This document shows positions 8,075 through 24,952 of a stretch of DNA of 45,950 bases, piece by piece. Position 1 is the stretch's first letter. Every line of letters begins with the position of its first letter. The DNA is taken from positions 1 through 45,950 of the IMG/VR virus record IMGVR_UViG_3300025892_001919; one strand, 5' to 3'. The translations under genes and the position numbers were made by a program. A model generated the notes under the pieces. The model did not search any database, had not been told where the DNA came from, and saw nothing but the letters and a program-made list of their open reading frames with translations. Origin of the DNA: a virus.

Positions 8075-8455
8075 TTAACTACCGAATACTATTGAAAACG
8101 CTAATGAATCTCCTAACATTGCTACATCACCATCTGCGTCTGGAAAAGTTATTGTTCTATCTCCTGTAGGTTCTGCAACCGTTATAGTTGTTTCGTATGC
8201 GTTCTCCTGATAGCCTTCAAAAACTAAATTTGCACCGTTTAATGTAATATCATTACTAGTTACGGCACCTGCATTTGTAACTGCCTGTAAAGTTACAGCA
8301 CCAGCACCACCAACTTCTTTTACAACACCACCAGATGTTTTAGTATATAACTTACCATCGGTAACATTCATTGCCAATTCGTGTACTTCTAAAGCAGCAG
8401 CACCTGGAATTTGACTTGGTGTTTCGGATCTTTTTGGTTTAATTACTGTTGCCAC
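8075..8455 (-). CDS. Short fibre-like protein, GTG start
   Basis: This 126-residue protein starts with GTG at 8453-8455, with a strong GGAGGAAAC ribosome site inside the end of the upstream gene. Its N-terminus (ATVIKPKRSETPSQIP) matches that of its neighbour (ATVIQIKRSPATSAP), so the two share an attachment segment. The C-terminal half holds a TTITVAEPTGDRTITFPDAD motif that recurs in the fibre at 27122-27991. It is probably a small fibre component, translationally coupled to the 571-residue fibre with a one-base overlap. Confidence 0.85.
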   Translation of the reverse strand: MATVIKPKRSETPSQIPGAAALEVHELAMNVTDGKLYTKTSGGVVKEVGGAGAVTLQAVTNAGAVTSNDITLNGANLVFEGYQENAYETTITVAEPTGDRTITFPDADGDVAMLGDSLAFSIVFGS

Positions 8456-10170
8456 TAAAAGTTTCCTCCATCAACAGTTACAATTTCAACTTCACCTGAA
8501 GTTACTTGAAAATTGTCTGAGGTAAATGAAGCAACACCTTTATTAGAAGTAGAGGCATCCTCACCTTCAACCTTGATAGTATTATTATCAACGATTGTGT
8601 TAATACCTTCTCCTGCTAAAAACTCTAAATTTTGTTCTAAATAAACTCTACCTGTTGTTGAAGACTCATCTGTTAAAGTAATAAATGGATTTGCTAATTT
8701 AGAAGTTGTTATTGTGTTGTTTGCAATCATAGAATCAACAACACCTAATGCCTTAACTCTTAATGCGTCTGAATTTACTTCTATTGAAGAATCATCAACT
8801 TCTACATCTAAAGTATTTCCACTTTTACTTAAAGCTGCACCTGCAGTTATTTGACCTGCACCAGAAAATTGTGCTACATCTAAATCAGTTGTACCAAATG
8901 TTGGAGCGCCTGTGTGTGTAAATGTGTAACCGTTATTAGCGTTAGCAGAACCTTCTTCAACAAATACGAAAGAACCACCTGATAATTCTGATGGTTGGTC
9001 TTCCGGAGTTGCTCTTGTTAGTACCCAAGGATTTGAAACATCGCCAAGTGATGTTAAAGTGTAGATACCGTTTTGAGTAGCATCTGTTTGATCTTTAACT
9101 AAAATTCTATCACTTAAATTTGTTGCGAGAGTATCTAAAGTTAATGTTCCGTTTGATGTTGATGTTAAAGTTGCACCTATACCAGATGTACCATTTGAAT
9201 AAGTTGCCGTTAAGTTACTTGTTGTTGCAAGTTTACAAGATGGTTTAGTATCTAAACCTTGTGCAACTTGGTCAACATATGTTTTATTTGCAAGTGAATT
9301 ATCTCCAAAACCTGCTCTATCTTCATAACCTGATGGTACAATTACTGTACCAGTACCGTGAGGTGTTAAATCAATATCTTTATTACCTGCTGTTGTAGTA
9401 ATTGTTTGACCATTAATTGTAATATCATCTACAACTAAAGAAGTTAAACCTGCAAGATCAGTTTCAGTTGCACCTAAAGTTAATACTGAAGTACCTAATG
9501 TTGTTTGAGGATTTGCTATATTAGCATTTGAAATAGCAGCACTACCAGATAAGTTAGCGTTTGTTAATGCTGTAGCAGTTACAGTTACCGTATTGTCGGT
9601 AACAGTTTGTGTCATACCACCAGTACCTAAAAAGTTTAATGTTTCTGAAGTATTATAAGTGTCTGTACCTGTATCACCTGCTAAGTTAATAAATTGATTA
9701 ACAGTATCAAAATCTAAATTACCTGAACCGTCTGTTTTTAAGAACTGACCAGCAGTACCATCACCATCAGGTAAAATAAAAGTTTGAGAATTTGTTACTG
9801 CATTAGGAGATTTAATTCCTATAAAGTTACTACCGTTATTAGTACCTTCGTTAAATCTAATTTCACCACCTGCTGTTAGTGAGTTACCTATATTGATTGT
9901 GTCTATTGCTAAGTTAGCGTCTGCTGTAAGTGCTGAATTACCTGTTAGAGTACCTTGTACGTGGTCTAACATATCTGTAAAATACTGACCTCCGATTACT
10001 GATACATTATTTGCGTCACCGTTACTGTCAACACCACCTTCACCAATAAAAATTCTATCTCCAAGATTGCCTTGTGTACCTGTTCCATAAGTATATGCTA
10101 ATTCACCAAGTTTAAGTGTTGCTGGTGCTGAAGTTGCAGGACTTCTTTTAATCTGTATTACTGTTGCCAT
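8455..10170 (-). CDS. Tail fibre protein
   Basis: This 571-residue fibre protein opens with ATVIQIKRS and LKLGELAYTYG, typical of phage fibre attachment segments. The mid part is low in complexity. Residues near 300-400 hold a recurrent phage fibre domain (KLATTSNLTAT...GDRILVKDQTDATQNGIYTL in outline), and the C-terminal shaft has NNTITTSKLANP-type repeats. The function is host contact or tail decoration, inferred from family resemblance. It is the first gene of a coupled pair with 8075-8455. Confidence 0.85.
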   Translation of the reverse strand: MATVIQIKRSPATSAPATLKLGELAYTYGTGTQGNLGDRIFIGEGGVDSNGDANNVSVIGGQYFTDMLDHVQGTLTGNSALTADANLAIDTINIGNSLTAGGEIRFNEGTNNGSNFIGIKSPNAVTNSQTFILPDGDGTAGQFLKTDGSGNLDFDTVNQFINLAGDTGTDTYNTSETLNFLGTGGMTQTVTDNTVTVTATALTNANLSGSAAISNANIANPQTTLGTSVLTLGATETDLAGLTSLVVDDITINGQTITTTAGNKDIDLTPHGTGTVIVPSGYEDRAGFGDNSLANKTYVDQVAQGLDTKPSCKLATTSNLTATYSNGTSGIGATLTSTSNGTLTLDTLATNLSDRILVKDQTDATQNGIYTLTSLGDVSNPWVLTRATPEDQPSELSGGSFVFVEEGSANANNGYTFTHTGAPTFGTTDLDVAQFSGAGQITAGAALSKSGNTLDVEVDDSSIEVNSDALRVKALGVVDSMIANNTITTSKLANPFITLTDESSTTGRVYLEQNLEFLAGEGINTIVDNNTIKVEGEDASTSNKGVASFTSDNFQVTSGEVEIVTVDGGNF

Positions 10171-10463: not shown

Positions 10464-10805
10464 TTATGTAGTTACATTGGGTCTTACAGTAATTAGACCC
10501 TCAATTACTCTAGTTACTGTACCAGTAGAGGTTTGTGTAATCTCTACATCATAAACATATCTTTCTGCGTCTAAAGATGCTGTCTGAGCTGCCGTCAACG
10601 ACAAAGCAACTACTCCTGAAGTAGCGTCTGTAGCAATAACCGAAGTCATAGATGTTCTTGTTCTTGTTGACGCATAACCTTTTGCTAACTTGGCTTCTGT
10701 TGTGTAACCAGTCAAATTAAATGCGTTTCCGTTTGCGTCTTTTACAGTTACATCTGAACTAAAATTAGCACCTTGATCTATTATTAAATTAGCTATTGCT
10801 GCCAT
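10464..10805 (-). CDS. BppU-like beta-sandwich structural protein
   Basis: This 113-residue protein has the pattern IDQGANFSSDVTVKDANG, NLTGYT...KLAKGY, VALSLTAAQTASLDAERYVYD and a closing VIEGLITVRPNVT. This matches the small immunoglobulin-like/BppU-type domains common in phage baseplates and fibres, from remembered family features rather than a search. The start overlaps the end of the 74-residue gene upstream by 17 bases, which points to translational coupling. Confidence 0.8.
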   Translation of the reverse strand: MAAIANLIIDQGANFSSDVTVKDANGNAFNLTGYTTEAKLAKGYASTRTRTSMTSVIATDATSGVVALSLTAAQTASLDAERYVYDVEITQTSTGTVTRVIEGLITVRPNVTT

Positions 10806-11013
10806 TTGTGTCTTCTATCGGTTGAACTTTCTCTTTTTCCATTAATTCCAAAATTTTCTTATTGTAATATTCTGTTAAAACTTGTATTTTTTCCAACTCA
10901 ACATTGTGTCTTACTTTTGACGCCTCAATTTCTTGTCTAGCAACGATTTTATTTCGTAATTCTATGCTAAAAGATGACTCGTCATATGTCTTTCCGTCTA
11001 TTGTTAAAGCCAT
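10789..11013 (-). CDS. Small coiled-coil protein
   Basis: This 74-residue protein is charged and mostly helical after residue 20. The segment IVARQEIEASKVRHNVELEK and the following KILELMEKEKV have heptad-like spacing. It is the first gene after the accessory block, with a clear AAAGGAG ribosome site and a late octamer at 11031-11038. It may be a fibre or baseplate assembly helper. Similar short coiled-coil proteins occur among structural genes of marine T4-like phages. Confidence 0.75.
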   Translation of the reverse strand: MALTIDGKTYDESSFSIELRNKIVARQEIEASKVRHNVELEKIQVLTEYYNKKILELMEKEKVQPIEDTNGSNS

Positions 11014-11030
11014 TATATACTCCTTTGTTA

Positions 11031-11038
11031 TATTTATA
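11031..11038 (-). promoter_or_regulatory. Late promoter octamer
   Basis: TATAAATA on the minus strand lies 17 bases upstream of the ATG at 11013, followed by AACAAAGGAG. It separates the fibre transcript from the desaturase/oxygenase block just upstream. Confidence 0.8.
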
Positions 11039-11041
11039 TGT

Positions 11042-11698
11042 TTAATTATAGTTATTTAGATTTTTTAACTCATATTCGTGGTGATCTCCGTGATCCCAAC
11101 CCCACCAATTTATGAACTTTTGCCAATGTACATTTCTCGGTTCTCCATTTATATGACATAAAGTATTAACTAATCCAGAAGCGTGAAAAGAATATATGAT
11201 AAAAGGTGAAATTAAGAAACATATTAATCTAATATCTATCAATGCTATCAAACTTATTATTACTATATGAAATTGTAACCAATATTTGTGTACAGTTTTT
11301 TGAAATTTACTTGTTATAAAATCTCTTATGATTAAGGGTGATATATTTTGCCCTTTCCAATCTAAAAGATAAACTCGTTTCCAACCTATGATTACAGGAC
11401 TATGAGGATCTTTTTCAGTATCAGTATGTTTGTGATGTTGTCTATGTGAAGCACTAAAACTTAAAGGTGATCCTAAAGAAGTACAAAGTGTTAATATAGT
11501 ATAGAAATAACTTTTTAAACAATCTTTGTATTTTCCGTGAGCAAAATAAAAGTGCATTATATCACTACCTACAAATTTTGCCCAAAACATACTTGCTAAA
11601 AATATAGGTATTGCATACCAAAAATTAAAACCATAATATATTAATCCTAATATTAAAAAAATATGATGTGATAAAATTAAAAATTGATTTTTACTCAT
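11042..11698 (-). CDS. Membrane fatty-acid desaturase-like protein (short)
   Basis: This 218-residue membrane protein keeps all three histidine boxes of the acyl-lipid desaturase superfamily: H49-x4-H54, H85-R-Q-H88-H89 followed by KHTDTEKDPHSP, and H203-G-D-H206-H207. These bind a di-iron centre that inserts double bonds or hydroxylates substrates using O2. Hydrophobic segments lie near 8-45, 60-80 and 140-170. It ends 11 residues after the last box and is shorter than usual delta-9 desaturases (about 270-300). The substrate is unknown. The ATG overlaps the next gene by 8 bases, and a paralogue lies at 13462-14166. Confidence 0.88.
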   Translation of the reverse strand: MSKNQFLILSHHIFLILGLIYYGFNFWYAIPIFLASMFWAKFVGSDIMHFYFAHGKYKDCLKSYFYTILTLCTSLGSPLSFSASHRQHHKHTDTEKDPHSPVIIGWKRVYLLDWKGQNISPLIIRDFITSKFQKTVHKYWLQFHIVIISLIALIDIRLICFLISPFIIYSFHASGLVNTLCHINGEPRNVHWQKFINWWGWDHGDHHEYELKNLNNYN

Positions 11699-12233
11699 TT
11701 TTATTTAATATTTTTAAAATATCCTCATAATCATCTCTAAAAGTTATTTGAAGACTATAACGCCATTCAGGTGTTTGATTAAAACATCTATGAAATGGAA
11801 TTGGATTTGTTACTACTGATCTTTCATCATATATATATTTTTCTTCAATTGTAGTTTTGTCTTCTTTATAATATTCTAATCTTGTTTCTTCTTTAAAATT
11901 ACGAGGACTTAATAATGTCATTAAAATTGTTCTTCTATACTCATTTGGTTTTGTATATGTATCCGTGTGTATGTGCATATCTTTCCAAGGTGGCAATCTC
12001 ATAACATAAATCGCAGCTGGTTCTTTTATTCTTTTTGTTACAATTTCTTTTGCTCTATAAATTGAATCATCTATTGTCCATTGACCAGTATAATCAGCAA
12101 TAACTTGATATGGTTGATTTGTTCCACTATAATGTGATGTGTGATTTTTCCAACTACCGTTTATTGCACTTTGTAACATTTCATTTTTATGTTGTTCAGA
12201 AAAAATAATATCTGTCGGATATGTGTACATCAT
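11691..12233 (-). CDS. Putative Fe(II)/2-oxoglutarate-type oxygenase
   Basis: This 180-residue protein holds a plausible double-stranded beta-helix metal site: H89-T-D91 within MHIHTD, a distal H148 in PIPFHRC, and R158 ten residues later in WRYSLQITF, where the 2-oxoglutarate-binding basic residue is expected. The H-x-D...H...R spacing is typical of the superfamily, but I do not recognise the exact family. It overlaps the next gene by four bases (ATGA type) and the following desaturase by eight. A hydroxylase acting on a small molecule or protein side chain is possible. Confidence 0.72.
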   Translation of the reverse strand: MMYTYPTDIIFSEQHKNEMLQSAINGSWKNHTSHYSGTNQPYQVIADYTGQWTIDDSIYRAKEIVTKRIKEPAAIYVMRLPPWKDMHIHTDTYTKPNEYRRTILMTLLSPRNFKEETRLEYYKEDKTTIEEKYIYDERSVVTNPIPFHRCFNQTPEWRYSLQITFRDDYEDILKILNKNE

Positions 12234-12943
12234 ACTTTATCAAATCCTTCAATCTTCCATAAGTGTCTTTGACCTCCTAAAGAAGTAGATTCTCTTTTGT
12301 GATTTGTAACTTTATTATTTGCAACTACAAAATCACCCCTTTCCCATTGATGATAATATATTCTACTAGGATCATAAAGTAATTTTTCTATTGCTTGTTT
12401 TTCTTCTTTAGGCAACTCAGTATATGCCTCACAATAATAAACATACTTACCTTTTTTATCTTCTTGTATTAAGTCGTGCCATACGTTTCTGTGTTTTCTT
12501 CTAAACCATCTTCGTTCTACTTCACTTCTAAATTTATATCCGTATCTTTCGTTACTTGTAAATCTTTCCATATCTACAGTTATCTTTTTATTTTCGATAG
12601 GACAATCAATACGATTATCAACGTATAAAGTACGACCTACATCTCCCTCTATTTCTAAAGCATATAGTCCAGTTACGTTTACAGGTCTTTGTGTATAACC
12701 TTTGTCAATGTGCCATTCTAAATCTGTATTACCATATAACTCGTGGTGTACACCAGACAATGTAATATCTAAAAAGATTTTATCCATAGGGTCTTGTGGT
12801 GCGATTTCGTAATATGAAGTTAAAAAATTAAACAATTGTAATTGTGAGGCGGGTGCGTTTTTAATTACAATTAAATCTATATCGTTATTTACTAACGGAG
12901 TTAAATCTCTATTTTTCCAATTCTGTATAATATAATTCATCAT
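12230..12943 (-). CDS. TauD/TfdA-like Fe(II)/2OG dioxygenase
   Basis: This 237-residue protein has the TauD-type metal motif H78-I-D80 (LEWHIDKG), a distal H215 in VTNHKRE and R226 eleven residues later (GGQRHLWKIEGF). RGDFVVANN just before H215 resembles the WxxGDxxxxDN segment of TauD/GbbH-like enzymes. Such enzymes couple O2 and 2-oxoglutarate to hydroxylate small amines, sulfonates or amino acids. It is slightly shorter than TauD (about 280). It is coupled by overlaps to both neighbours, and its substrate is unknown. Confidence 0.85.
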   Translation of the reverse strand: MMNYIIQNWKNRDLTPLVNNDIDLIVIKNAPASQLQLFNFLTSYYEIAPQDPMDKIFLDITLSGVHHELYGNTDLEWHIDKGYTQRPVNVTGLYALEIEGDVGRTLYVDNRIDCPIENKKITVDMERFTSNERYGYKFRSEVERRWFRRKHRNVWHDLIQEDKKGKYVYYCEAYTELPKEEKQAIEKLLYDPSRIYYHQWERGDFVVANNKVTNHKRESTSLGGQRHLWKIEGFDKV

Positions 12944-13469
12944 TTCTTTTAAAATTATTTCCTGTATAACTTATGTATTGTAATCCACCTTGTGATTTTT
13001 TATAAGTTACATAATGTGGACCTTCAAAATACCATTTGTATTTAGAATACTTATTATGGCCTCTTGTCAACTTCTCTAACACACGTTTACCTCTTTGTTC
13101 CATTGACATAAAGATACAACCAAATCCTTTATCTTTACAAAAGTCTGTTTGTTGTTCTAATAAATCTGAAGAAGTTTTTTTAAATAGTCCATCATAATTT
13201 GATGGAAGTAAACCTGTATTACCCTCAATTAAAGCATACCGATCAAACACTCTTACACTATCATTATAACAACTACGAGTTAATATTCTTGCTGTTGCAA
13301 CAGGATTTCCTTTATCGTTATATCTTATAGAAACACCTAATACAGGTTCTTTTAAACCTTCTTTAGTATAATTTTTTGCTGTTTTGCCACCTTTTTTTAT
13401 GACTATATCATAAATGTAATCAATGTCTTTTTGAACATCTAAAGGTGCAACCTCAAATGTCTTAATCAT
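12909..13469 (-). CDS. Putative GNAT-like acyltransferase
   Basis: This 186-residue protein is not firmly recognised. Residues about 45-70 (PVLGVSIRYND, NPVATARILTR) and the following FDRYALIEGNTGL look like GNAT beta strands 2-4. LLEQQTDFCKDKGFGCIFMS fits the later helix and strand, but the canonical acetyl-CoA loop (Q/RxxGxG/A) is not obvious. It lies between a TauD-like dioxygenase (35-base overlap) and a desaturase (8-base overlap), so it probably belongs to one pathway with them. An unrelated phage-specific fold is possible. Confidence 0.65.
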   Translation of the reverse strand: MIKTFEVAPLDVQKDIDYIYDIVIKKGGKTAKNYTKEGLKEPVLGVSIRYNDKGNPVATARILTRSCYNDSVRVFDRYALIEGNTGLLPSNYDGLFKKTSSDLLEQQTDFCKDKGFGCIFMSMEQRGKRVLEKLTRGHNKYSKYKWYFEGPHYVTYKKSQGGLQYISYTGNNFKRNDELYYTELEK

Positions 13470-14166
13470 ATTTTATCAAACGAATAAAAAAGTAAGTAGG
13501 ATCAATAAGACCTAATCTTAACTTTTTAGAATTATCGTGGTGCGTTTTGTGATAACCTTCTCCTGCTGTAAATAAATTTAACCAATGACTATTGGCTGCC
13601 TTGCCGTCTTTATGTAAGTATGCGTTAAACAATCCAAACAAATGTGAACTTAAAACACAAGGCACACAATAAGCAAAGATTAATAATAACGGATCAATTA
13701 AAAATAAAACTGTAACAATAGTAAATACTAACTTCCAATAATGATTGTGAAAAAATTTTAATATTTTATTATCAATTAGACCTTTAAAAAATCTACGTTC
13801 TATCTTGCTGTCTAATCCCCATAGATTAAAATAGATTTTCCAAAAACCGTGATGTACAGGACAACTAGGGTCTTTAGGTGTATCTGCATAAGCGTGGTGT
13901 TGTCTGTGTATTGCGGCTCGTGTTAGATATGGACCTGAACCTACAAATAGACTTAAAAAGTTTGTAAACCATTCAAACCATTTACCTGTTTTAAATGATT
14001 GATGAGAATAGTATCTATGATAACCTGCACTTGAAGAACAGATTGTTATAATATAATACCATACAAAACCTGCAACAAACATCCATAGATTACCATAGAT
14101 GAATCCTGGTATTAATGCCACGTGGCATAGTAAATGATTGAGTAAAAGTTTGTGTGTTGTTTTCAT
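13462..14166 (-). CDS. Delta-9-type fatty-acid desaturase
   Basis: This 234-residue integral membrane di-iron enzyme shows the full set of histidine boxes: H50-RYYS-H55, H87-RQ-H90-H91 followed by AYADTPKDP, and H206-KT-H209-H210. The C-terminal LRLGLIDPTYFFIRL resembles the tail of acyl-CoA/acyl-lipid delta-9 desaturases. Hydrophobic stretches flank the boxes in the usual two-hairpin layout. It would use O2 and reducing power in the inner membrane. It is a more complete paralogue of 11042-11698. A role in remodelling host lipids or an acylated product is inferred. Confidence 0.9.
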   Translation of the reverse strand: MKTTHKLLLNHLLCHVALIPGFIYGNLWMFVAGFVWYYIITICSSSAGYHRYYSHQSFKTGKWFEWFTNFLSLFVGSGPYLTRAAIHRQHHAYADTPKDPSCPVHHGFWKIYFNLWGLDSKIERRFFKGLIDNKILKFFHNHYWKLVFTIVTVLFLIDPLLLIFAYCVPCVLSSHLFGLFNAYLHKDGKAANSHWLNLFTAGEGYHKTHHDNSKKLRLGLIDPTYFFIRLIKYD

Positions 14167-14181
14167 AATATAAATTAAAAT

Positions 14182-14472
14182 TTATTCGTCTTCTAAACTA
14201 AAAGTAATTTCATTGTCTTCCAAATATTCAATTGCGTTAGCTGCTGAAGTTAATATAGTATCTTCATTTACATAATCAATGAAATCTTCCTCGGTAGTAA
14301 ATTCTATTGTCATAGTTTTTACTAAATTATTTTCAGAAATTGTTGTTTCTAATCCTGTTGTTTTACCTACTGAAACATATTCATTTATTTTATTAACTGT
14401 TATTTCTCCAGGCGAATAAAACTCTACATCTTCCGAAGGTCTTTCTTGGATCAATTTTCTTATTTTTGGCAT
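14182..14472 (-). CDS. Small acidic hypothetical protein
   Basis: This 96-residue protein is acidic, with a basic N-terminal patch (MPKIRKLIQERPSED). A middle segment with KTMTIEFTTEEDFIDYVNED looks like a small alpha/beta domain. I do not recognise the family. It has a strong AAAGGAG ribosome site and a late octamer at 14488-14495, which lies inside the 3' end of the upstream oxygenase gene. It may be the first gene of the desaturase/oxygenase transcript. Confidence 0.75.
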   Translation of the reverse strand: MPKIRKLIQERPSEDVEFYSPGEITVNKINEYVSVGKTTGLETTISENNLVKTMTIEFTTEEDFIDYVNEDTILTSAANAIEYLEDNEITFSLEDE

Positions 14473-14487
14473 AAGTCTCCTTTTTTA

Positions 14488-14495
14488 TATTTATA
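14488..14495 (-). promoter_or_regulatory. Late promoter octamer
   Basis: TATAAATA on the minus strand lies 15 bases upstream of the ATG at 14472, followed by TAAAAAAGGAG. It overlaps the last codons of the gene at 14491-14940. It would drive the block from 14472 down to 11042, whose genes are otherwise tightly overlapping. Confidence 0.75.
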
Positions 14496-14940
14496 ACACA
14501 CCTACAATATGTATTCTATCTTCCCTTGAAGCATTTAAAGCAGTATGAAATTTTGTAGTATCTATAATATAACAACTTCCGTCTGCTGGATAATGATTAA
14601 CTTCTTTATCAATTATTATAAAACAATTTTCATTTGTAATAATTGGTATATGTAATCGTTTTGAATAATCTCTATGATATGTATAACAAGTTTTTGATTT
14701 TAAATTCATCACTCTTGTTCTATACATTTTTAAATCTTTCATCAAAGAATTTATGTAAGGCATATCAAATATAGGTTTGTTAAAATCTTTTTCATTATAT
14801 CCTAATTCTTGTATTCTGTAAAAAGTACCACAACCAAAAAAAGGATCATTATTATCTTTAACACCTTGAAGACAAATCTGATCTTCAAATTTAGGAAGTA
14901 TTTTTAATTCTTCTTTAATTTTTTGTAAATCTACGGACAT
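14491..14940 (-). CDS. Aspartyl/asparaginyl beta-hydroxylase-like oxygenase
   Basis: This 149-residue protein matches the Asp/Asn beta-hydroxylase cupin pattern. It has H89-R-D91 followed by YSKRLHIPIITN, then NHYPADGSCYIIDTTKFHTALN with H132, and DRIH with R142 ten residues after H132. These residues suit Fe(II) and 2-oxoglutarate binding. A close relative lies at the right edge (45538-45950) with nearly the same core (WHRD...KRIHIPIITN). Its target may be a protein Asp/Asn side chain or a small molecule. It overlaps the mini-SDR gene by ten bases. Confidence 0.85.
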   Translation of the reverse strand: MSVDLQKIKEELKILPKFEDQICLQGVKDNNDPFFGCGTFYRIQELGYNEKDFNKPIFDMPYINSLMKDLKMYRTRVMNLKSKTCYTYHRDYSKRLHIPIITNENCFIIIDKEVNHYPADGSCYIIDTTKFHTALNASREDRIHIVGVL

Positions 14941-15359
14941 ACTGTAATTTCTTTTACTCTATGTGGTTGATTAAGTATCCAATCTATTACAGATATACAA
15001 TACTCTATTGACATTTTCTTTTTATCTATATGTGATACTCTAGGAGAATCAAAATATCCAAATCTAACTATTGTTGTGTTTACACCTTGATAGTATAATT
15101 GATGATTTGCTTTATCTAGTGCTGATTTTTCAACAGCGTAAATATGTTTGACTTTTTTTGTTTCATCTGGTGCATTAGAACCTATATTAATAATTCTTTT
15201 ATTTAATTCTGCAGCCTGATATAATAACTTAACTTGTTCAAATCCATCGTGTTTACAGTTTATAAAAACATCACAATCTTGTAAACTGTCAACTGTATCA
15301 TATTTTTCACTTAATATTTTTCCAAGGCCTCTACGAGTACCAGTAATATAGTATTTCAT
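14931..15359 (-). CDS. Minimal short-chain dehydrogenase/reductase
   Basis: From ATG at 15357-15359 the product is 142 residues. It has the nucleotide-binding T6-G7-T-R-R-G11-L-G13 motif, S61 in INIGSN, and Y74-A-V-E-K78, a complete Ser-Tyr-Lys catalytic set of the SDR family. It is far shorter than the usual 240-260 residues. The frame is open to an ATG at 15455, but that extension is hydrophobic filler that would overlap the divergent plus-strand gene. The TATAAATA octamer five bases upstream of 15359 supports the shorter start. The substrate is unknown. Confidence 0.8.
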   Translation of the reverse strand: MKYYITGTRRGLGKILSEKYDTVDSLQDCDVFINCKHDGFEQVKLLYQAAELNKRIINIGSNAPDETKKVKHIYAVEKSALDKANHQLYYQGVNTTIVRFGYFDSPRVSHIDKKKMSIEYCISVIDWILNQPHRVKEITVCP

Positions 15360-15364
15360 ACACT

Positions 15365-15372
15365 TATTTATA
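15365..15372 (-). promoter_or_regulatory. Late promoter octamer, leaderless type
   Basis: TATAAATA on the minus strand lies five bases before the ATG of the mini-SDR gene. It shares a 70-base divergent intergenic region with a sigma-70-type promoter on the opposite strand. Confidence 0.75.
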
Positions 15373-15429: not shown

Positions 15430-16290
15430 ATGATTAATATAGTATGTACAAGCAAACCAGGTGATGGTTTATTAAGATATAGTTATGAACATAATTGTGC
15501 TCTAAATTCTTTAGGTATAAAAACACAATTAGTAATTATACCTAATCCCAAACACACAAAAGAAGAATATATTACTTCAATCAAAGATCAGTATAAGATA
15601 TATGAAAATGTTGTCTTTGATGCTACGCCTAATGGTAATGATGTAACTTTAGTATTGGGTAGAAGTATGATAACTTTGGCATTTAAAGATATAAAAAATT
15701 ATACTATGGATCAAAAGTTATCTTTACATTTACTATTTGGTAATAAAATTATAGCAGTATATTCAGAAAATCATCCTAAAGAATATCCTATTGCATTAGA
15801 ATATTTTAAAACAAAAGAAATATTTGACTTATGTGATTTTGATGTTTACCCTAATGGTGAAGGAATACAATATGAAAAAATTATAAATTTTGATTTATAT
15901 AAACCTATAAAAAATGAAATACATTATAAACATTTATTTTTAGGTACAAATGAAATATATTACAAAGAAATTGAAAAACATATTGACAAGTATCCAGATC
16001 ACGGTATCGTAACTTACAATGAAAGATGGATCAATCCTAAATTAAACAATCTGTTTGCACCTATAGAGAATATACTAGGTAAATTTGAAACATATGTTTA
16101 TACCAAACCAAACTTTGACCCAGCACCTAGACTATTTGTTGAGTTTAAATGGTTAGGTAAAAAAGTAGATTATTTAAGAGATAAAAATATGAAAGACGGT
16201 GGTATGGTTTATTGGAACAGACCTGTACCTACGAAACAGATTTATAAAGACAATATAAATACTTTGATTGATTTGATTAAAACAATATGA
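15430..16290 (+). CDS. Putative GT-B-like glycosyltransferase
   Basis: This 286-residue protein is only partly recognised. The N-terminal part looks like a Rossmann-type domain. The C-terminal FDPAPRLFVEFKWLGKKVDY segment resembles the GT-B motif in which an acidic residue (E) contacts the donor sugar and is followed by a GK-V strand. A DGGMVYWNR segment follows. As first gene of the plus-strand island it directly follows the extended -10 promoter, and it overlaps the SGNH gene by four bases. Glycosyl transfer is likely but not certain. Confidence 0.7.
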   Translation: MINIVCTSKPGDGLLRYSYEHNCALNSLGIKTQLVIIPNPKHTKEEYITSIKDQYKIYENVVFDATPNGNDVTLVLGRSMITLAFKDIKNYTMDQKLSLHLLFGNKIIAVYSENHPKEYPIALEYFKTKEIFDLCDFDVYPNGEGIQYEKIINFDLYKPIKNEIHYKHLFLGTNEIYYKEIEKHIDKYPDHGIVTYNERWINPKLNNLFAPIENILGKFETYVYTKPNFDPAPRLFVEFKWLGKKVDYLRDKNMKDGGMVYWNRPVPTKQIYKDNINTLIDLIKTI

Positions 16291-17054
16291 AAAAAATATT
16301 AATAGTAGGTGGCGATAGCTTTTCTGATAAAGATTTTAGAACTTTTATACATCCAGAATTAGATACATCTTGGCCAAAATGGCCTGAACTTTTAGCAAAA
16401 AAGTTAGATATGGAATGTATTAATTTAGCAAAATCTGGTGCAGGTAATGATTACATTTACGAATCTTTGCTTGAAACTATACAAGATACCGATAAAAATA
16501 GAATAGGATTAGTTATTGCAGGATGGTCTCAATGTCAAAGAAGAAGTTGGCAAGAGTCAAAAGATTTAATATGGAAAAATAGTAGAGTAGATCAAAAAGG
16601 TGATGTATTTTATTGGGTAAAAAGAACATTAAGATTTTATTCTAGTTTTCAAAATTTATGTGAAAGATATAATTTACCTTACAAACAATTTCAAATGATT
16701 TCCCTATTTCAAGGTTGGATAAATGGTTTATTTCAAAATGATTGGGAGGTACATCAAAATATTCTAAATCCCGATCCTAACTTTGTAGAAAGACATAACT
16801 ATCCAGGTGATAAAAATAAAGATGTAATCATATTACAAAATATGATTCTTAATTACGAAAAAAATATTAACACTAAAAATTTTATAGGTTGGCCTTCCCT
16901 AAAAGAATTAGGAGGTTTTTATATAGAACATAGAACAATTAGAACCTTAAAAGATAAAGCAATAGATGATTTAGTAATATCAAAGTATGACGCTCATCCT
17001 ACAGCAAAAGGACAAGAAAAAATAATGGAGTTTATATATGACAGGTTGGGATAG
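16287..17054 (+). CDS. SGNH/GDSL-family hydrolase
   Basis: This 255-residue protein has the SGNH blocks: GGDSFSD (S11 nucleophile, residues 8-14), NLAKSGAGNDYI (G51-G53-N54), and D235-A-H237-P followed by TAKGQEKI, the C-terminal Asp-His dyad. SGNH enzymes are esterases or acyltransferases, often removing or adding acetyl groups on sugars. No signal peptide is seen, so it is probably cytosolic. It overlaps both neighbours (4 and 17 bases) in a glycan-type operon, so acyl editing of the product is a reasonable inference. Confidence 0.85.
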   Translation: MKKILIVGGDSFSDKDFRTFIHPELDTSWPKWPELLAKKLDMECINLAKSGAGNDYIYESLLETIQDTDKNRIGLVIAGWSQCQRRSWQESKDLIWKNSRVDQKGDVFYWVKRTLRFYSSFQNLCERYNLPYKQFQMISLFQGWINGLFQNDWEVHQNILNPDPNFVERHNYPGDKNKDVIILQNMILNYEKNINTKNFIGWPSLKELGGFYIEHRTIRTLKDKAIDDLVISKYDAHPTAKGQEKIMEFIYDRLG

Positions 17055-18312
17055 AGAATATCTGAAACATAAAGATGAATACCTAGAACTTTTTGATAAG
17101 TCAATGCAAAAAGAACAAGAAGGTAATGTTGAGTTTTTAGAAGACAAACTTAAACTAATCACAGGTAGAAAATATGTTGTAGTTTGTAGTAATGGCACAG
17201 ACGCATTGCATTTTGCTTTGAGAAGTTTAAATATTAAAAAAGGCGATGAGGTATTAACAACTAATTTTTCTTGGATTTCTACTGCGTCTTGTATATCTAT
17301 GGTTGGTGCAACACCTGTATTTTGTGAAATTGATATATCGTCTTATCATATATCATTAGACAGTATAAAACGTATGTATTCGGATAAAGTAAAAGCAATA
17401 GTTTATCCACATCTATTCGGTAATATGTCTGACACAAAAGAGATATTAGATTTTTGTAAAGAAAAAAATATTGCATTTATAGAAGACGCAGCTCAATCGT
17501 TAGGCGCAAGTCTTAATGGTGTTAAAGCAGGATCAATAGGTGATATATCATCATTAAGTTTTAACGCAAACAAAGTTGTTGCTGGGATTGCAGGAGGTGG
17601 TGCTATACTTACAGATGATAAAGATAAAGCAGATATATTTAAAAAATTAAGAAGACACGGCAATAATGAAATATTGGGTTATAATTCTAAAATGTTATTA
17701 ATGAATGCTGAATTTATTAACTTCAGATTAAATAGAATGAAAGAATGGCAAGAAAAAAGACAGGAAATCGCAAAACAATATGATGAACAATTAAAAGATT
17801 ATGTTTTAGTACAACCTACAACAAATGGCCTTGACCATAATTATCACAAATATGTTATTAGATTACCTAACAAAGAGATAAGAGATGAATTAAAAAATAT
17901 CTTAAACGCAAAAGTACATTATGATAAGCCATTATCAGAAAATGTTATCTATAAAAACATTGAATATAGAAAAGATAAAACTTATGAAAGTAAGTTAGTT
18001 TGCGACACCATACTAACTTTACCTATTCATCCATATATGACACAATTAGAAATAGATAAAATAATTAATGTAATTATTATTACCTTAGAACATCAAAATA
18101 ATAAATTTGTAAACAATATGAAAAAGATATTAGGTAATGACTTATTTGATAAAGAATTAATTAAAGAAACTACTGAAGATATTTACGATTATATTGTTGA
18201 AAAAACATATCAATTGCCAGAGTATATTGAAGAAGTTGAATTTAAAGATAAGAGAAAACTGAAGATAGCATTTAATAAATTTTATGAAAACATTACAACA
18301 AATACAAAATGA
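17038..18312 (+). CDS. DegT/DnrJ/EryC1-type aminotransferase with extension
   Basis: Residues 1-350 form a PLP-dependent sugar aminotransferase: SNGTDAL (51-57) binds phosphate, EDAAQSLG (149-156) contacts the pyridine ring, and K179 in SFNANK is the expected Schiff-base lysine. The next segment reads GIAGGGA instead of the common GEGG. Such enzymes make amino sugars from nucleotide-linked keto sugars. Residues about 354-424 form a charged helical extension absent from typical members. A GGAG ribosome site lies before the ATG. The C-terminus overlaps the radical SAM gene by 29 bases. Confidence 0.9.
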   Translation: MTGWDREYLKHKDEYLELFDKSMQKEQEGNVEFLEDKLKLITGRKYVVVCSNGTDALHFALRSLNIKKGDEVLTTNFSWISTASCISMVGATPVFCEIDISSYHISLDSIKRMYSDKVKAIVYPHLFGNMSDTKEILDFCKEKNIAFIEDAAQSLGASLNGVKAGSIGDISSLSFNANKVVAGIAGGGAILTDDKDKADIFKKLRRHGNNEILGYNSKMLLMNAEFINFRLNRMKEWQEKRQEIAKQYDEQLKDYVLVQPTTNGLDHNYHKYVIRLPNKEIRDELKNILNAKVHYDKPLSENVIYKNIEYRKDKTYESKLVCDTILTLPIHPYMTQLEIDKIINVIIITLEHQNNKFVNNMKKILGNDLFDKELIKETTEDIYDYIVEKTYQLPEYIEEVEFKDKRKLKIAFNKFYENITTNTK

Positions 18313-19108
18313 TTATCTAGCCATAGATTTCTTTTTATCTATGTCTTGTAATAAAAACTGCCATTATTGTACAAGTTACACTTTAGAAATGCGTAACTTA
18401 ACAGTTGATATGGACTTTTTAAAACAGACATTAGAATATTTGAAGAATTACAAAGTAAGAGTTAATTTATTAGGTGGCGAGCCTGGTCTTATTAAAAATT
18501 TAAGAGAAGTAATAGATGAAATAAAGAAGTATCCTAATTTTGTTTGTTCGGTTTTATCTAACTCATTTGTAAGAAAAAGATATCCTGAAATATTAGAAGA
18601 TAGAGATATACTTTATGTTGAACACAATATATTAGATTGGTATGAAAATGAAGTAACAAAATTAGGTAACTTTGATTACATACCTGAAAATGATTTTAAC
18701 AATTATAATGTTGTTGTAAGAACACCTAACTATTACAAATATAAAGACAAGTTTCCTGAAGTATTGAAAAAATTAAACCATAAAAATACAATGTGGAAAG
18801 CATTTAATGGTAGATCAAAAGATTTTACAGACGTTATACAAGCAGATGAGATTGATCGTAAGATGTGTGCAGCCTTTCCTATGGTACCTGTTATTGACTT
18901 TGAAAAAAGACACATTGTACATTGTAGTAAAAAGTTTGCTAACAATAGTGAGTTATCTAAAACTTTTGAATTGACAAAAGAGAATATTGATAAGATGATG
19001 AACTTTAGATTATTTAAATATGAAAACTACTGTAAGACCTGTACAGAATGGGTACAACCGAAGGGACATTTTCCTATGAGAAAATATGCAAAATTATTAA
19101 ATGATTAA
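18284..19108 (+). CDS. Radical SAM enzyme with auxiliary-cluster cysteines
   Basis: This 274-residue protein has the canonical C22-x3-C26-x2-C29 motif (CNKNCHYC) for a [4Fe-4S] cluster and GGEP at 64-67 for SAM binding. Four more cysteines, C195, C214, C250 and C253, could hold a second Fe-S cluster as in SPASM/twitch proteins. No RiPP-like precursor is visible beside it. Within the island it may catalyse a radical step on a sugar or peptide substrate. It is translationally coupled on both sides (29- and 8-base overlaps). Confidence 0.92.
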   Translation: MKTLQQIQNDYLAIDFFLSMSCNKNCHYCTSYTLEMRNLTVDMDFLKQTLEYLKNYKVRVNLLGGEPGLIKNLREVIDEIKKYPNFVCSVLSNSFVRKRYPEILEDRDILYVEHNILDWYENEVTKLGNFDYIPENDFNNYNVVVRTPNYYKYKDKFPEVLKKLNHKNTMWKAFNGRSKDFTDVIQADEIDRKMCAAFPMVPVIDFEKRHIVHCSKKFANNSELSKTFELTKENIDKMMNFRLFKYENYCKTCTEWVQPKGHFPMRKYAKLLND

Positions 19109-20594
19109 AATATATTCAGTAGCATTAAACTTACACGATCACAATACGTATGATGGCGTCTTTCATAATCAAAGAGAAAGATATACTAGGTTTAAACACA
19201 ACTTACCTTATCACGCTGAAGCATATGCTCATCAATCAGATATATTAAACCCAGCAGACTATCGTTTAAATGATGAGTTTGTAAAAGAGTATTTTAAAAA
19301 GAAAAATGATGTGTTAGCATTTACATATACTTATGGTGGCATAAGAATGTGTAAAGATTTATTACCACAAGATGTGTTTGATTATAAACCTAAAAAATTG
19401 TGGGATCACTATTATAAAGACGGAATTTATTTTATAGACCATCATCAATCACACGCAACATATGCCTTTCTTAATTCTGGATATAAAGAATCTGATATAT
19501 TAGCAATTGATGGCATAGGTTCAAAATATAGATGTGTGTTCTTTGATAAAGACCAAAACTTAATTGATTTGTCTGATAAATTACCTATTGGTTGGTTATG
19601 GAATCATATGTCTAACTTAACAGGATTTGGTACCCTAGGTGCAAGTAAACTTATGGGATTAGTTGCATATGGTAAATTTAGTAAATATTATTATAATATT
19701 TTTCAAACAATATTAGAAGGTCCTATAACTGAAAAGAAACAATCTAAATTTAATTTTATAAAGATAGATGATTATGGAATTAATGATTTAGCATACACAT
19801 TACAAAAATTTACAATAGATAAAATAAAAGAATATGTGTATCCGATAAAAAGTTGTAATAATCTATGTGTTGCTGGTGGTGTTGCATACAATGGTTATAT
19901 GAATGAAGAATTTACAAATCATTATGAAAATGTATTTGTACCACCTGCTGTAGGTGATGAAGGACAAGCAATTGGCACATATCAACACGCTGATTACACA
20001 TTGAATAATAACGTACACATATCAGAAACATTTGCTGGTAAAGAGTATGATTATAATGGAATAGAAGAAGTAAATTATAAAGAAGTTGCACAGGCCATTG
20101 CTAATGGTAAAATAGTAGGTTGGTTTCAAGGCAAATCAGAAAGTGGCAATCGTGCATTGGGTAATAGATCAATACTTGCAGACCCACGTAATCCTAATAT
20201 AAAAGATATTATTAATCATACTATAAAGATGAGAGAAGACTTTAGACCTTTTGCACCTGCTGTTTTAGAAGAACACTATAAAGAATATTTTGATACAAGA
20301 TTACCCAGTCCTTATATGAGTAGAATATGTAAAGTTAAAACTGATAAAGTACCAGGCATAACACACAAAGATAATACAGCAAGAATACAAACTGTTAATA
20401 AAAAATTTAACGAAAAGTTTTATAAAATTATAAATGAGTTTTATAAGATAACAGGTATTCCAATGTTATTAAATACGAGTTTTAATTGTCAGGAACCTAT
20501 TGTAGAAACACCTGAACAAGCTATTAGAACTTTTAAAAGAACATCCTTAGATTTATTAATCATAGATAAGTATATTATTAGAAAGAACAATTAA
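19101..20594 (+). CDS. NodU/CmcH/TobZ-family carbamoyltransferase
   Basis: This 497-residue protein carries the family landmarks: DHHQSHATYAF (H114, H115, H118), LAIDGIG near 134-140, CVAGGVAYNG near 256-265, GDEGQAIG at 285-292, and GNRALGNRSILADPR at 349-363, followed by LLNTSFN and PEQAI. The Kae1-like domain makes a carbamoyl-adenylate from carbamoyl phosphate and ATP, and the YrdC-like part transfers it to a hydroxyl group. Known acceptors include sugars, antibiotics and, in phage-associated members, hydroxymethylcytosine. It sits between the radical SAM and nitroreductase genes. Confidence 0.92.
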   Translation: MIKIYSVALNLHDHNTYDGVFHNQRERYTRFKHNLPYHAEAYAHQSDILNPADYRLNDEFVKEYFKKKNDVLAFTYTYGGIRMCKDLLPQDVFDYKPKKLWDHYYKDGIYFIDHHQSHATYAFLNSGYKESDILAIDGIGSKYRCVFFDKDQNLIDLSDKLPIGWLWNHMSNLTGFGTLGASKLMGLVAYGKFSKYYYNIFQTILEGPITEKKQSKFNFIKIDDYGINDLAYTLQKFTIDKIKEYVYPIKSCNNLCVAGGVAYNGYMNEEFTNHYENVFVPPAVGDEGQAIGTYQHADYTLNNNVHISETFAGKEYDYNGIEEVNYKEVAQAIANGKIVGWFQGKSESGNRALGNRSILADPRNPNIKDIINHTIKMREDFRPFAPAVLEEHYKEYFDTRLPSPYMSRICKVKTDKVPGITHKDNTARIQTVNKKFNEKFYKIINEFYKITGIPMLLNTSFNCQEPIVETPEQAIRTFKRTSLDLLIIDKYIIRKNN

Positions 20595-21293
20595 ATGAAT
20601 TATTTTGATACATTAGAAAAAAGAAGCCACGTCAAAAAATATGATATGACTAAAATACCACCTAAAGAAAAAATAGAAAGAGCATTATGGAAAGCGTGGA
20701 AAACTTCGCCATCAAAAAATCAATCAATGGCATATCAATGTTTGGTATGGGGACCTGATAAAGAAATACACAAACAAGCAATACACAATTTAGTAACTAA
20801 ATCACATAGAGCAGTTGAAGAAAAAGCAGTTGAAGAAGGTAGACAAAAAATTGTTCAACAAGGTGCAGGTCAATTTCCTAATCCTTATTATGAACACGTG
20901 GCATTTAATCCATATTTGTTTACTATTCATAGTAGAGTTTCAACTCCAAACAGATATTATGAAGCACAAATAAAAAAAGGACATCATTACGAACAAGGAT
21001 TTGAAGATAAAATTGAAAAAATTATAGATTCAGTAGCAGTAGAAGTAGGAATATTTGCAGCTAATTTAGGTTATTATTTACTAGAAGAAGGTTTAGATAT
21101 AGCATACAACTCTTGTTTTAGAAGAAGACCTGAAGAATGGCATAAAGTAGGATTAACTATGGTAAAGACAAGACCTATAACAATGATATCCTGTGGATAT
21201 GCAAAAAGATTTAGAAGACAAGATTTAAAATTAACAGGTAAAGAAGATTGGGATAGAAGACCTGAACTAGAAGAAATCATAAAATGGATGTAG
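20595..21293 (+). CDS. Nitroreductase-family flavoprotein
   Basis: This 232-residue protein opens with the nitroreductase pattern R10-S-H-V-K-K-Y, followed by I21PPKEKIERAL and TSPSKNQ (37-43), the segments that bind the FMN phosphate and ribityl chain. A later helix (EVGIFAANLGYYLLEEGLD) and MISCGYAK match the C-terminal part of the fold. Members reduce nitro groups, flavins or enones with NAD(P)H, and some act as dehydrogenases in natural-product pathways. It starts directly after the carbamoyltransferase stop and overlaps the methyltransferase by ten bases. Confidence 0.82.
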   Translation: MNYFDTLEKRSHVKKYDMTKIPPKEKIERALWKAWKTSPSKNQSMAYQCLVWGPDKEIHKQAIHNLVTKSHRAVEEKAVEEGRQKIVQQGAGQFPNPYYEHVAFNPYLFTIHSRVSTPNRYYEAQIKKGHHYEQGFEDKIEKIIDSVAVEVGIFAANLGYYLLEEGLDIAYNSCFRRRPEEWHKVGLTMVKTRPITMISCGYAKRFRRQDLKLTGKEDWDRRPELEEIIKWM

Positions 21294-21898
21294 ATTTACA
21301 ATTATTCAAAAACATAATGAATGAGGCCAGACACAATCCTGACCTATTAGATTCTTATAGTCCAAATCAATTTAAATCAAAAGAGGTATTAATCAATCAC
21401 ATCAACAATTTAAATATTTTAGATGACAAATCTGAAATTATAATACTAGGAAGTTGGTATGGCAGTATATTAATTCCTGCATTTAAACAAGTTAAAAGAA
21501 TTACTGCTGTAGATTCAGATGAAAATATTATTAATATTGCTAAAAATAGATTGTTTAATCATTATACAAATGTAGATTTTATATGTGATGATGTTTTTTC
21601 TACTTTCAGAAATCAATATGAAAAGGCTACTTTGTTTATCAATACTTCTTGCGAGCATATGAAACCTATGAAAGAGTGGGGATCAGCACCAACTTATAAA
21701 AATCCTTGGTGGGACAGAGTATCACCGGCTTACTTTGCTTTTCAATCAAATAATATGAGAGATATTGAAGGACATATTAATTGTGTAGATAGTAGTGGTG
21801 AATTTGAAAAACAATTACCAGATAATGCAAAAGTTTTGTATAGAGGTCATATAGAAGATAGTAGAGGACATAGATTTACATTAATAGGCAAATTATGA
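21284..21898 (+). CDS. SAM-dependent methyltransferase-like protein
   Basis: This 204-residue protein has a Rossmann-type SAM fold start: motif I at 52-60 (IIILGSWYG), acidic D77 after strand 2 (ITAVDSDE), and a D-D pair after strand 3 (FICDDVF). The glycine-rich loop is degenerate (GSWYG instead of GxGxG), so cofactor binding is likely but not certain. The region FINTSCEHM may form the active site. It overlaps both neighbours slightly, which suggests an O- or N-methylation step in the same pathway. A tRNA or protein target cannot be excluded. Confidence 0.75.
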   Translation: MDVDLQLFKNIMNEARHNPDLLDSYSPNQFKSKEVLINHINNLNILDDKSEIIILGSWYGSILIPAFKQVKRITAVDSDENIINIAKNRLFNHYTNVDFICDDVFSTFRNQYEKATLFINTSCEHMKPMKEWGSAPTYKNPWWDRVSPAYFAFQSNNMRDIEGHINCVDSSGEFEKQLPDNAKVLYRGHIEDSRGHRFTLIGKL

Positions 21899-22758
21899 GT
21901 AGAGTAATTTATAGTTTTTACATTGATATACCTGAAGATGAGTTAGATATATTTGATAAGAATGTTTTAAGAAAAGATCAAGTACCTACAAATATCAATA
22001 CTAAAAAACAATTCAAAGATAATTACTTTAAGTTATTAGCAAATAAAAAATGGTATGCTGAATCAATAGGTATAGATTTTTTGATGTTTGAGTATGATCT
22101 TCGGTACCAAAAATTTGCACTAGAAATTAAAAGACATTATCCGTTTATTACAACTTATAATGTAGTTAACTTTTACAAACTAAAATTACTATATGAGTTA
22201 TCAAAGACTTATGATGAAATACTTTACTTGGACTTTGATGTAGTATGTTTAACTAAAGATAACTTTTTTGATACTTGGAATTTAGATAAAGGTATAGCAG
22301 TATTTGACAATACTTACAAAGTTAATACTATGGAAACTATTACTAAAGAAACTCAAACTATTAGAAGTCCTACAGCAAAGTATTATAATGCTCAGGCAAT
22401 GTTAATGGAAAAGAATTTAAGTCCTAAAAACAAAGTTATTAACACAGGTATTATAGGTGCAAATAAAGAACATATAGATAAACTAAAATACTTTGATAAC
22501 TTTAATAGTGATATTAATACAATGAAAAATTTAACAACAAACTATGATGTATTTCCTAAAAAGATTGTAGATTTTTTTGGTTATGATAATGAAACTTTGT
22601 TTAGTGTTAAGTTAAACGAACACAATGTACCTGTACAATGGTTAGATAATCAATGGCATTATTTTTTTGACACACAAGGTTTTATACCAAAAGAAACTAA
22701 ATTTGTACACGCAATTAATAAAGACTTTGATTGTTGTTGGAGACGATACTATGCTTAA
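21895..22758 (+). CDS. GT-A-type glycosyltransferase
   Basis: This 287-residue protein has D113-F-D115 (EILYLDFDVVCL), the DxD motif that binds the metal and nucleotide sugar in GT-A folds. It is followed by NTGIIGANKEH, a typical acceptor-side segment, and a C-terminal FVHAIN motif close to GT8-like transferases. There is no signal peptide or membrane segment. It starts four bases inside the previous gene with AGGCAAATT as ribosome site, and overlaps the next glycosyltransferase by eight bases. Confidence 0.82.
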   Translation: MSRVIYSFYIDIPEDELDIFDKNVLRKDQVPTNINTKKQFKDNYFKLLANKKWYAESIGIDFLMFEYDLRYQKFALEIKRHYPFITTYNVVNFYKLKLLYELSKTYDEILYLDFDVVCLTKDNFFDTWNLDKGIAVFDNTYKVNTMETITKETQTIRSPTAKYYNAQAMLMEKNLSPKNKVINTGIIGANKEHIDKLKYFDNFNSDINTMKNLTTNYDVFPKKIVDFFGYDNETLFSVKLNEHNVPVQWLDNQWHYFFDTQGFIPKETKFVHAINKDFDCCWRRYYA

Positions 22759-23491
22759 GATATGTACTGTATATTTTGATGGTTTCTATACGCCAGATTA
22801 TGTTTCAAAACTTTATAGAAGTTTAAAAAGAAACTCTACTATACCATTTGAGTTTGTATGTATTAGTGATACAGATGTTGAAGCAGATGTTGTGTTACCT
22901 TACAATCATCAAAGTAATATTAAGAAACATTGGCATAAATTAAAATACTTTAGTCCTCAATTCGCTAATCAGAAACCTGGAGATGAGATTATAATTATGG
23001 ATATTGACCAAGTGATTACGGGCAATGTAGATGAATTAATTGGGCATCCTGTATCAGACAATGAATTGGTAACTTATGGTCAATGGTGGGATAGTAAACT
23101 AAAATTAAATGGTGGATTTTATAAATTTAAATCTGGTAGTTTAAAAAGTATATGGGATGACTTTGCACTTAATCCTGAATATTGGCAGTTGCACTATTAC
23201 AATAATGGTGACGTACATACAAAATATTACGGTGAACAAAACTATGTAAATTGGAAAATACAAGAACATAATATAAAATTAACTCTCACACCACAACAAT
23301 GGTTATGTAAATATACAGATGACTTTAAACAAAATTTAGAGTTGAATAAGGTATATAGTAAAAAATTTGATACAGACTATATGATATTAGATGATGTTAA
23401 TAAATATATTAAAATTGTACACTTTACTGGTGTAGGAAAAACAATTCACAACTCTAATGCTAAATTTATAAAGGATAATTGGTATGACTGA
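22751..23491 (+). CDS. GT-A-type glycosyltransferase
   Basis: The product is 246 residues when started at the ATG at 22751, which has GGAG nine bases upstream. An upstream in-frame ATG at 22667 would overlap the previous gene by 92 bases and adds unrelated residues. D84-I-D86 in IIIMDIDQVITGNVDELI is the DxD motif. The C-terminal KIVHFTGVGKTIH is typical of nucleotide-sugar transferases of this type. HKLKYF just upstream of the DxD recurs as NKLQMY in the gene at 24374, so the two are probably paralogues. Confidence 0.85.
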   Translation: MLKICTVYFDGFYTPDYVSKLYRSLKRNSTIPFEFVCISDTDVEADVVLPYNHQSNIKKHWHKLKYFSPQFANQKPGDEIIIMDIDQVITGNVDELIGHPVSDNELVTYGQWWDSKLKLNGGFYKFKSGSLKSIWDDFALNPEYWQLHYYNNGDVHTKYYGEQNYVNWKIQEHNIKLTLTPQQWLCKYTDDFKQNLELNKVYSKKFDTDYMILDDVNKYIKIVHFTGVGKTIHNSNAKFIKDNWYD

Positions 23492-24377: not shown

Positions 24378-24952
24378 GAATAATTTGTTGTAGATTTGGT
24401 AAAAAGTTTACAGATTGGCACGTTAACAATCTTAAACATATGATAGACAATTATTCTGGTCTATTTTATGATAGTTTTGAAGTAATAGAAAATGACATTT
24501 ATGGTAATTGGTACAATAAACTTCAAATGTATGATAAATTTAGAGATGGTCAAAACTTATATTTTGATTTAGATGTTATTATCTATAATAAACTACCTGA
24601 TTTAATTAGAAAAGAATTTACATTATTGAATGATAGTTGGTGGAGAGAACCAGCACATACACCTCTTAATTCATCTATTGTATCTTGGACAGGTGATGTA
24701 TCACATATTTGGAAAAAATTTAAATCAAATGAAGACTTATACTTAAAGCAATACAACAAAGGTAGTGATGAATTTTATTATAAAGAAATAGATTTTAGAA
24801 CTTACGATAAAATATGTCCATCTATCAAAGATTATCTTTATGAGGAACCTAAAGATTACAGTATTGTAACATTAGGTCAAATGCACCATATATTAGAAAA
24901 GGGTTGGACAGGATGGTGGTCTGATTATTTAATTAATTCAAAAGCAGTTTGA
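24374..24952 (+). CDS. Short GT-A-type glycosyltransferase
   Basis: This 192-residue protein has D65-L-D67 (NLYFDLDVII), a GT-A metal-binding motif, preceded by a KLQMYDKF helix like that of the gene at 22751. It is shorter than usual, and the acceptor domain is reduced to about 120 residues, including a Trp-rich segment (WWREP, GWTGWWSD). It is the last gene of the plus-strand island. Its final 28 bases overlap the end of the convergent gene at 24925, so no terminator separates them. Confidence 0.78.
   Translation: MRIICCRFGKKFTDWHVNNLKHMIDNYSGLFYDSFEVIENDIYGNWYNKLQMYDKFRDGQNLYFDLDVIIYNKLPDLIRKEFTLLNDSWWREPAHTPLNSSIVSWTGDVSHIWKKFKSNEDLYLKQYNKGSDEFYYKEIDFRTYDKICPSIKDYLYEEPKDYSIVTLGQMHHILEKGWTGWWSDYLINSKAV

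Follow-up and report, generated by a model that had tools for sequence, protein, structure and literature searches.

We identified, within a block of eight minus-strand genes, a conserved core of three that recurs in related viral contigs beside tail-fibre genes and that, in the samples we searched, is specific to phages. The block lies at positions 15359 down to 11042 of a 45,950-nt stretch of viral DNA (IMG/VR virus record IMGVR_UViG_3300025892_001919, positions 1-45,950; hereafter the window). The core comprises a membrane desaturase (DES1, 13462-14166), a predicted GNAT-fold acyltransferase (GNAT, 12909-13469) and a TauD/TfdA-family Fe(II)/2-oxoglutarate (2OG) oxygenase (TAUD, 12230-12943), and it sits in a slot where enzymes of the aspartyl/asparaginyl beta-hydroxylase (AspH) type are near-universal. 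An initial annotation had proposed that the genes of this block form a small pathway for desaturation, hydroxylation and acylation, to be checked by a search for conserved gene order; the genes are not scattered singly in relatives, and DES is tied to TauD and GNAT.

Database searches with DES1 and with TAUD returned largely the same contigs, and so did the search with GNAT. The DES1-GNAT-TauD core is kept in about 20 contigs across several gene orders, inversions included. Most commonly the three genes form one overlapping run; elsewhere DES1 is inverted relative to GNAT and TAUD (loci L014-L016), an AspH gene is inserted and TAUD is inverted (L020), an extra gene is inserted before TAUD (L019 and L132), or a GNAT-like gene of family f73 follows it (L060-L062). 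Loci of another desaturase group have the order GNAT-TAUD-DES (L071, L073 and L118). A tree of desaturases places the phage sequences in two main groups, without resolving their link to the cellular ones, and both groups carry GNAT-, TauD- and AspH-type partners. Among 39 phage desaturase loci (dereplicated at 90%), a partner gene was found within 6 kb in 32 cases for AspH, 27 for TauD and 28 for GNAT-type genes, the last class including a family, GNAT26, that was counted on a weak Acetyltransf_1 match and on its annotation in Pelagibacter phage Mosig EXVC030M. Families f8 and f25 were not accepted as secure members of the 2OG enzymes, their profile comparison being not significant, and therefore the AspH and TauD counts are given alone. 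Near cellular desaturases none of the three partner types was found (0 of 55 dereplicated loci for each), in a set that was picked by similarity to DES and examined with family profiles made from phage loci, so that remote cellular versions could escape. On this result we rejected a cellular origin of the cassette. One sequence filed as a Rhodobacteraceae genome (L217, FZLS01000007.1) looks like a phage contig, with a single run of genes that holds DES, GNAT, AspH and others of 2OG-like type.

To control for the bias of selecting loci through DES, we also gathered loci by means of the neighbouring tail gene (window positions 8455-10170). The 21 slots with at least 3.5 kb of sequence upstream of this anchor are a highly variable mosaic of the same parts. 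TauD genes are present in 7 of the 8 slots with DES and 3 of the 13 without it (Fisher P = 0.007), and GNAT-type genes in 8 of 8 and 7 of 13, respectively (P = 0.03), relatedness among the loci being ignored in both tests. AspH genes show no association: 7 of 8 slots with DES have one, as do 12 of 13 without it, and AspH was ruled out as a DES-specific partner. We also rejected the idea that all eight genes form one unit: the conserved set is consistent with the three kinds of step that had been proposed, but its members are unequal, and the second desaturase (DES2) and third candidate oxygenase (OXY2) are peripheral and accessory to it.

The iron ligands of both desaturases, recognized in the initial annotation by their three His boxes, are complete. 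The motifs HxxxxH, HRQHH, NxxxH and HxxHH are kept in DES1 and DES2 (11042-11698), and the His and Asn ligand positions are common to the two. DES1 matches the desaturase family PF00487 above its cut-off (E = 1e-14), whereas the divergent DES2 falls below it (E = 0.02); DES2 also matches the NCBIfam model DesA with an E-value of 9e-8, yet far below that model's cut-off. A profile of the DES family aligns with the solved acyl-CoA desaturases 4zyo (E = 2e-9) and 4ymk (E = 8e-8), and DES1 has hydrophobic segments at residues 7-47 and 143-181. His boxes, the additional Asn and His ligands and hydrophobic segments are thus all present as expected of an integral-membrane diiron desaturase of PF00487, with the family score reached by DES1 only. 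Other viral contigs contain a single, near-identical copy of DES2.

The GNAT gene product is confidently predicted to have a GNAT fold, which firms up what had been called a possible GNAT. Window GNAT has no match in Pfam, LuxI-type families included, a sequence search of the PDB found nothing significant, and among 19 homologs only 2 have even a weak match to Acetyltransf_1. A first AlphaFold2 model, built with close homologs only, was useless (predicted local distance difference test, pLDDT, of 47), and adding distant members fixed the prediction: with 19 sequences, the most distant of them 15% identical, the pLDDT is 88.3 and the predicted template modelling score is 0.86. Foldseek searches of the PDB with this model gave a best E-value of 8.4e-7 (probability 1.0), and the top matches are all GNATs. 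The (R/Q)xxGx(G/A) acetyl-CoA loop that usually follows strand 4 is absent from the GNAT alignment, and the corresponding loop of the model (residues 84-93) has low confidence. Families f73 and f37 are homologous to window GNAT (profile probabilities of 98% and 96%), whereas homology of GNAT26 to it is not supported (12%).

Two of the three proposed Fe(II)/2OG oxygenases have family matches above the cut-off, and the third is recognized by its motif. TAUD matches PF02668 with an E-value of 5e-14 (53 bits; cut-off 27), and its residues H78xD80, H215 and R226 are invariant across 13 homologs. Its closest solved chains are the TauD/TfdA dioxygenase 7tcl and PvcB; a match to the fatty-acid oxygenase ScoE was weak (E = 0.07) and was not used. 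AspH (14491-14940) matches PF05118 with an E-value of 1e-10 (42 bits; cut-off 22.6). Its best solved relative, with the HxD, H and R positions shared in the alignment (E = 6e-17), is the caprazamycin beta-hydroxylase Cpz10 (PDB 7v4f), whose substrate is a glycyluridine intermediate in an antibiotic pathway (PMC9814697). A second PF05118 gene lies outside the block on the minus strand (45538-45912). Aspartyl/asparaginyl beta-hydroxylase has been listed as a core gene of pelagimyophages (PMC7029224). OXY2 (11691-12233) is a putative third 2OG oxygenase, in which H89xD91, H148 and R158 are invariant in three homologs. It has only a handful of relatives, no Pfam match and no significant PDB sequence match, and in a profile comparison with AspH the motif was in register but the match was not significant.

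The remaining block genes are SDR and SM96. SDR (14931-15359, with its ATG at 15359) encodes the putative miniature short-chain dehydrogenase/reductase of the initial annotation; its translation carries the cofactor and catalytic motifs (TGxxxGLG, Ser and YxxxK), but at 142 aa it reaches only about half the size of classical members, and the adh_short match in Pfam is weak (E = 0.02). Its homologs are of the same length (70-87% identity). SM96 (14182-14472) encodes a small acidic protein of 96 aa with no assigned function and no convincing match in Pfam or PHROGs. It is present in 17 loci, often directly upstream of DES1. SM96 also recurs at slot edges, in either orientation and even beside different enzymes (L008, L010, L189 and L193), and it may mark a cassette boundary. 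PHROGs comparison gave no named function for any block gene.

All eight genes were confirmed at 11042-15359, head to tail on the minus strand and adjoining the tail-fibre genes, and they are as tightly packed as first described, with overlaps of 4-35 nt or gaps of 15-18 nt between neighbors. Late transcription, also part of the original proposal, is supported by sequence signals. The core of the T4 late promoter is TATAAATA. Late-promoter-like copies on the minus strand are found directly upstream of SDR-AspH (15365-15372), upstream of SM96-DES1-GNAT-TAUD-OXY2-DES2 (14488-14495), and upstream of the next tail gene (10789-11013), where the site at 11031-11038 forms the downstream boundary of the block. 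The whole-window count of TATAAATA (17, against 11.8 expected) shows little excess, and so the evidence for late promoters is the placement of the sites: 11 of 16 minus-strand sites precede a gene start by at most 40 bp, compared with 10% for permuted 8-mers, a conservative comparison because some permuted 8-mers overlap the motif itself. The block accounts for two of these 11 sites. The plus strand encodes, at 43620-44039, a protein with sigma-70 region 4, as in the T4 late sigma factor; it is possibly the late sigma factor of this phage, consistent with the TATAAATA sites. Computable dN/dS values are about 0.06-0.28 (NG86 method, several comparisons being saturated), so the block genes are under purifying selection.

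Judged from its genes, the window is a fragment of a pelagimyophage-like phage, and its host is likely to be a SAR11 bacterium. Its baseplate and tail genes are T4-like, and its gp6-like protein has 64% identity to that of Mosig EXVC030M (MT647606), 52-53% to the Melnitz and HTVC008M proteins, and no more than about 40% to those of cyanophages. The window has a variable island with tail fibers and O-chain genes inside the structural region, as in the host-recognition cluster defined for pelagimyophages (PMC7029224). In Mosig, the nearest isolate, this slot is likewise flanked by tail-fibre genes and a divergent glycan operon, and it holds genes for a desaturase (35% identical to DES1), a TauD-type and an AspH-type enzyme and an N-acetyltransferase. 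It differs in having aminotransferase, FMN reductase, peroxiredoxin and methyltransferase genes, and in lacking a homolog of window GNAT at E = 1e-3. TBLASTN searches with TAUD and GNAT against 50,697 phage records found no match, so the window's version of the cassette is unseen among isolates.

We tentatively favor the interpretation that the block is a late, phage-specific accessory biosynthetic cassette in a tail-fibre-side slot, whose enzymes desaturate, hydroxylate and N-acylate an acyl product. This product would probably be an envelope lipid resembling an aminolipid; the chemistry and purpose of the cassette are what we infer. One or both membrane-bound desaturases would act on host acyl chains, because they are of the integral-membrane acyl desaturase type, GNAT would acylate an amine, and hydroxylation or further oxidation of the amino-acid or acyl part would fall to the soluble 2OG oxygenases. 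Late in infection, the host envelope would then contain a modified molecule of aminolipid-like or N-acyl type. The most likely benefit would be that the altered envelope of infected or lysed cells binds fewer released or competing virions, or that release is eased. In favor of this interpretation we count the retention of the triad through inversions and insertions, the association of DES with TauD and GNAT, the frequent presence of AspH, TauD and GNAT-type genes at phage desaturase loci against none at the 55 cellular ones, the late-promoter-like sites and purifying selection. We also count a phage contig (L139:4634-7138) in which a beta-ketoacyl synthase gene is followed directly by a more distant desaturase and an unassigned 197-aa protein, and the inclusion of the lipid A hydroxylase LpxO in PF05118, the Pfam family of AspH, together with a weak match of AspH to the NCBIfam LpxO model (E = 1.6e-5). 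Finally, in a Ruegeria mutant without the amide-linked aminolipids that SAR11 and roseobacter cells produce, phage adsorption is about four-fold less (PMC9938194).

Several points weigh against this interpretation. Neither a lipid nor an amino acid, the two substrates originally suggested, is established as the substrate of the cassette, and an OlsB-type role for GNAT is an analogy, as no Pfam acyltransferase family matches it. AspH does not qualify as LpxO, since its NCBIfam match reaches 24 bits against a cut-off of 500 and it has no hydrophobic segment to correspond to the membrane segments of LpxO. AspH genes are frequent in the slot whether DES is there or not, so AspH may have another purpose. 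The anchored comparison involves few and related slots, some of them incomplete, and locus L013 has DES1 (91%) and an AspH gene without TauD or GNAT.

L013 would also fit independent accessory genes, for instance a desaturase serving membrane fluidity, that share no pathway and simply happen to be frequent in a hypervariable slot. The high variability of the slot and the published proposal of membrane fluidity for viral desaturases (PMC7300359) speak for this explanation, which we nevertheless think quite unlikely, given that in the anchored sample DES goes with TauD and GNAT more often than by chance, that the set is retained through inversions and insertions, that its reading frames overlap, and that the partner set recurs in two phage desaturase groups. 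Surface-glycan tailoring is unlikely too, in which GNAT would N-acylate an amino sugar from the divergent DegT/radical-SAM/carbamoyltransferase operon, the 2OG enzymes would modify the acyl group or sugar, and the region would remodel the host O-chain. The operon begins only 71 bases away, its DegT aminotransferase best matches LegC/PseC amino-sugar enzymes, and DegT and GNAT enzymes cooperate in amino-sugar pathways; O-chain genes are moreover abundant in pelagimyophage host-recognition clusters (PMC7029224). However, cassettes that join DES to GNAT and 2OG genes commonly lack DegT (present in 6 of 91 loci), relatives without DES have the operon (L143 and L149), and what an integral-membrane acyl desaturase would do to a sugar is not obvious.

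The constant position beside tail-fibre genes and the late-type expression signals could instead indicate virion-protein modification, with AspH-type and other 2OG enzymes hydroxylating, and GNAT acylating, neighboring tail-fibre proteins. AspH-family enzymes can modify proteins, but this explanation is improbable: it leaves two membrane desaturases and SDR unexplained, and Cpz10 acts on a small molecule. Least probable is that the GNAT fold is used in the manner of LuxI or FeeM, to make a diffusible N-acyl signal or a metabolite resembling an antibiotic. The lack of the usual acetyl-CoA loop motif is in keeping with such a product, and desaturase and 2OG tailoring would suit it; against this, GNAT has no LuxI-type or other Pfam match, and the top Foldseek matches are ordinary acetyltransferases. 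A broader version of the biosynthetic-cassette interpretation, which we consider doubtful, is that marine T4-like phages evolved their own pathway, not known in cells, for an oxidized, unsaturated N-acyl molecule (aminolipid- or signal-like) made late in infection, its parts being shuffled beside tail fibers during adaptation to host surfaces.

Roitman et al. 2018 reportedly described lipid desaturases in cyanophages. Phage desaturases, pelagimyophage AspH genes and the variable slot are already known (PMC7300359, PMC7029224, PMC11480375). For the conserved combination of DES, GNAT and 2OG genes, we found, like the initial annotation, no described phage pathway in the literature searched, many subscription papers being outside its scope. 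Viral fatty acid desaturases, such as the vFAD of Arctic viruses (PMC7300359), are like DES in being phage-borne three-His-box membrane enzymes that probably act on host acyl chains, but they have been discussed as single genes, whereas the window desaturase is tied to GNAT and 2OG oxygenases. Synthesis of ornithine lipids (OlsB, OlsA, OlsC, OlsD and OlsE; PMC3972451) has a comparable logic, in which N-acyl transfer is followed by hydroxylation of either head group or acyl chains in an aminolipid, but unlike the cassette it has neither a TauD-type enzyme nor a desaturase. No OlsB- or OlsA-level match was found in the cassette, and we rejected its classification as an ornithine-lipid operon on the absence of the former. 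By analogy the cassette may work like aminolipid modification, rather than being an instance of it, as no member qualifies as an Ols or LpxO protein. Viral desaturases have so far been read as stand-alone fluidity genes, and here the desaturases from two phage groups are found again and again with partners of the same types. The recurrence of GNAT, TauD and AspH partners, with none at the sampled cellular desaturases, points to a defined product, which could be sought by mass spectrometry in Pelagibacter HTCC1062 with phage Mosig, whose cassette is related. Should this product be an envelope lipid, phage-borne metabolism would thereby be tied to adsorption in an abundant bacterial group of the ocean.

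The divergent operon (15430-24952, plus strand) has GT-like, SGNH-like, DegT aminotransferase, radical SAM, NodU-type carbamoyltransferase, nitroreductase and methyltransferase genes. The initial annotation had noted epimerase and glycan genes near the block. Since DES cassettes and this operon each occur without the other, the operon cannot clearly be assigned to the pathway of the block. Several of its genes are 65-90% identical to those of Mosig, while the adjoining oxygenase block is replaced. Other marine phages, including Mosig, have a desaturase with varying combinations of an aminotransferase-like protein, AspH, TauD, methyltransferase, FMN reductase, redoxin and a GNAT-like protein. 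Mosig is the sole match among isolates for the small aminotransferase-like gene, and a run of DES, AspH, TauD, the small aminotransferase-like protein, 2OG, methyltransferase and other genes recurs in loci L084-L119 (for example, in L095 from position 942).

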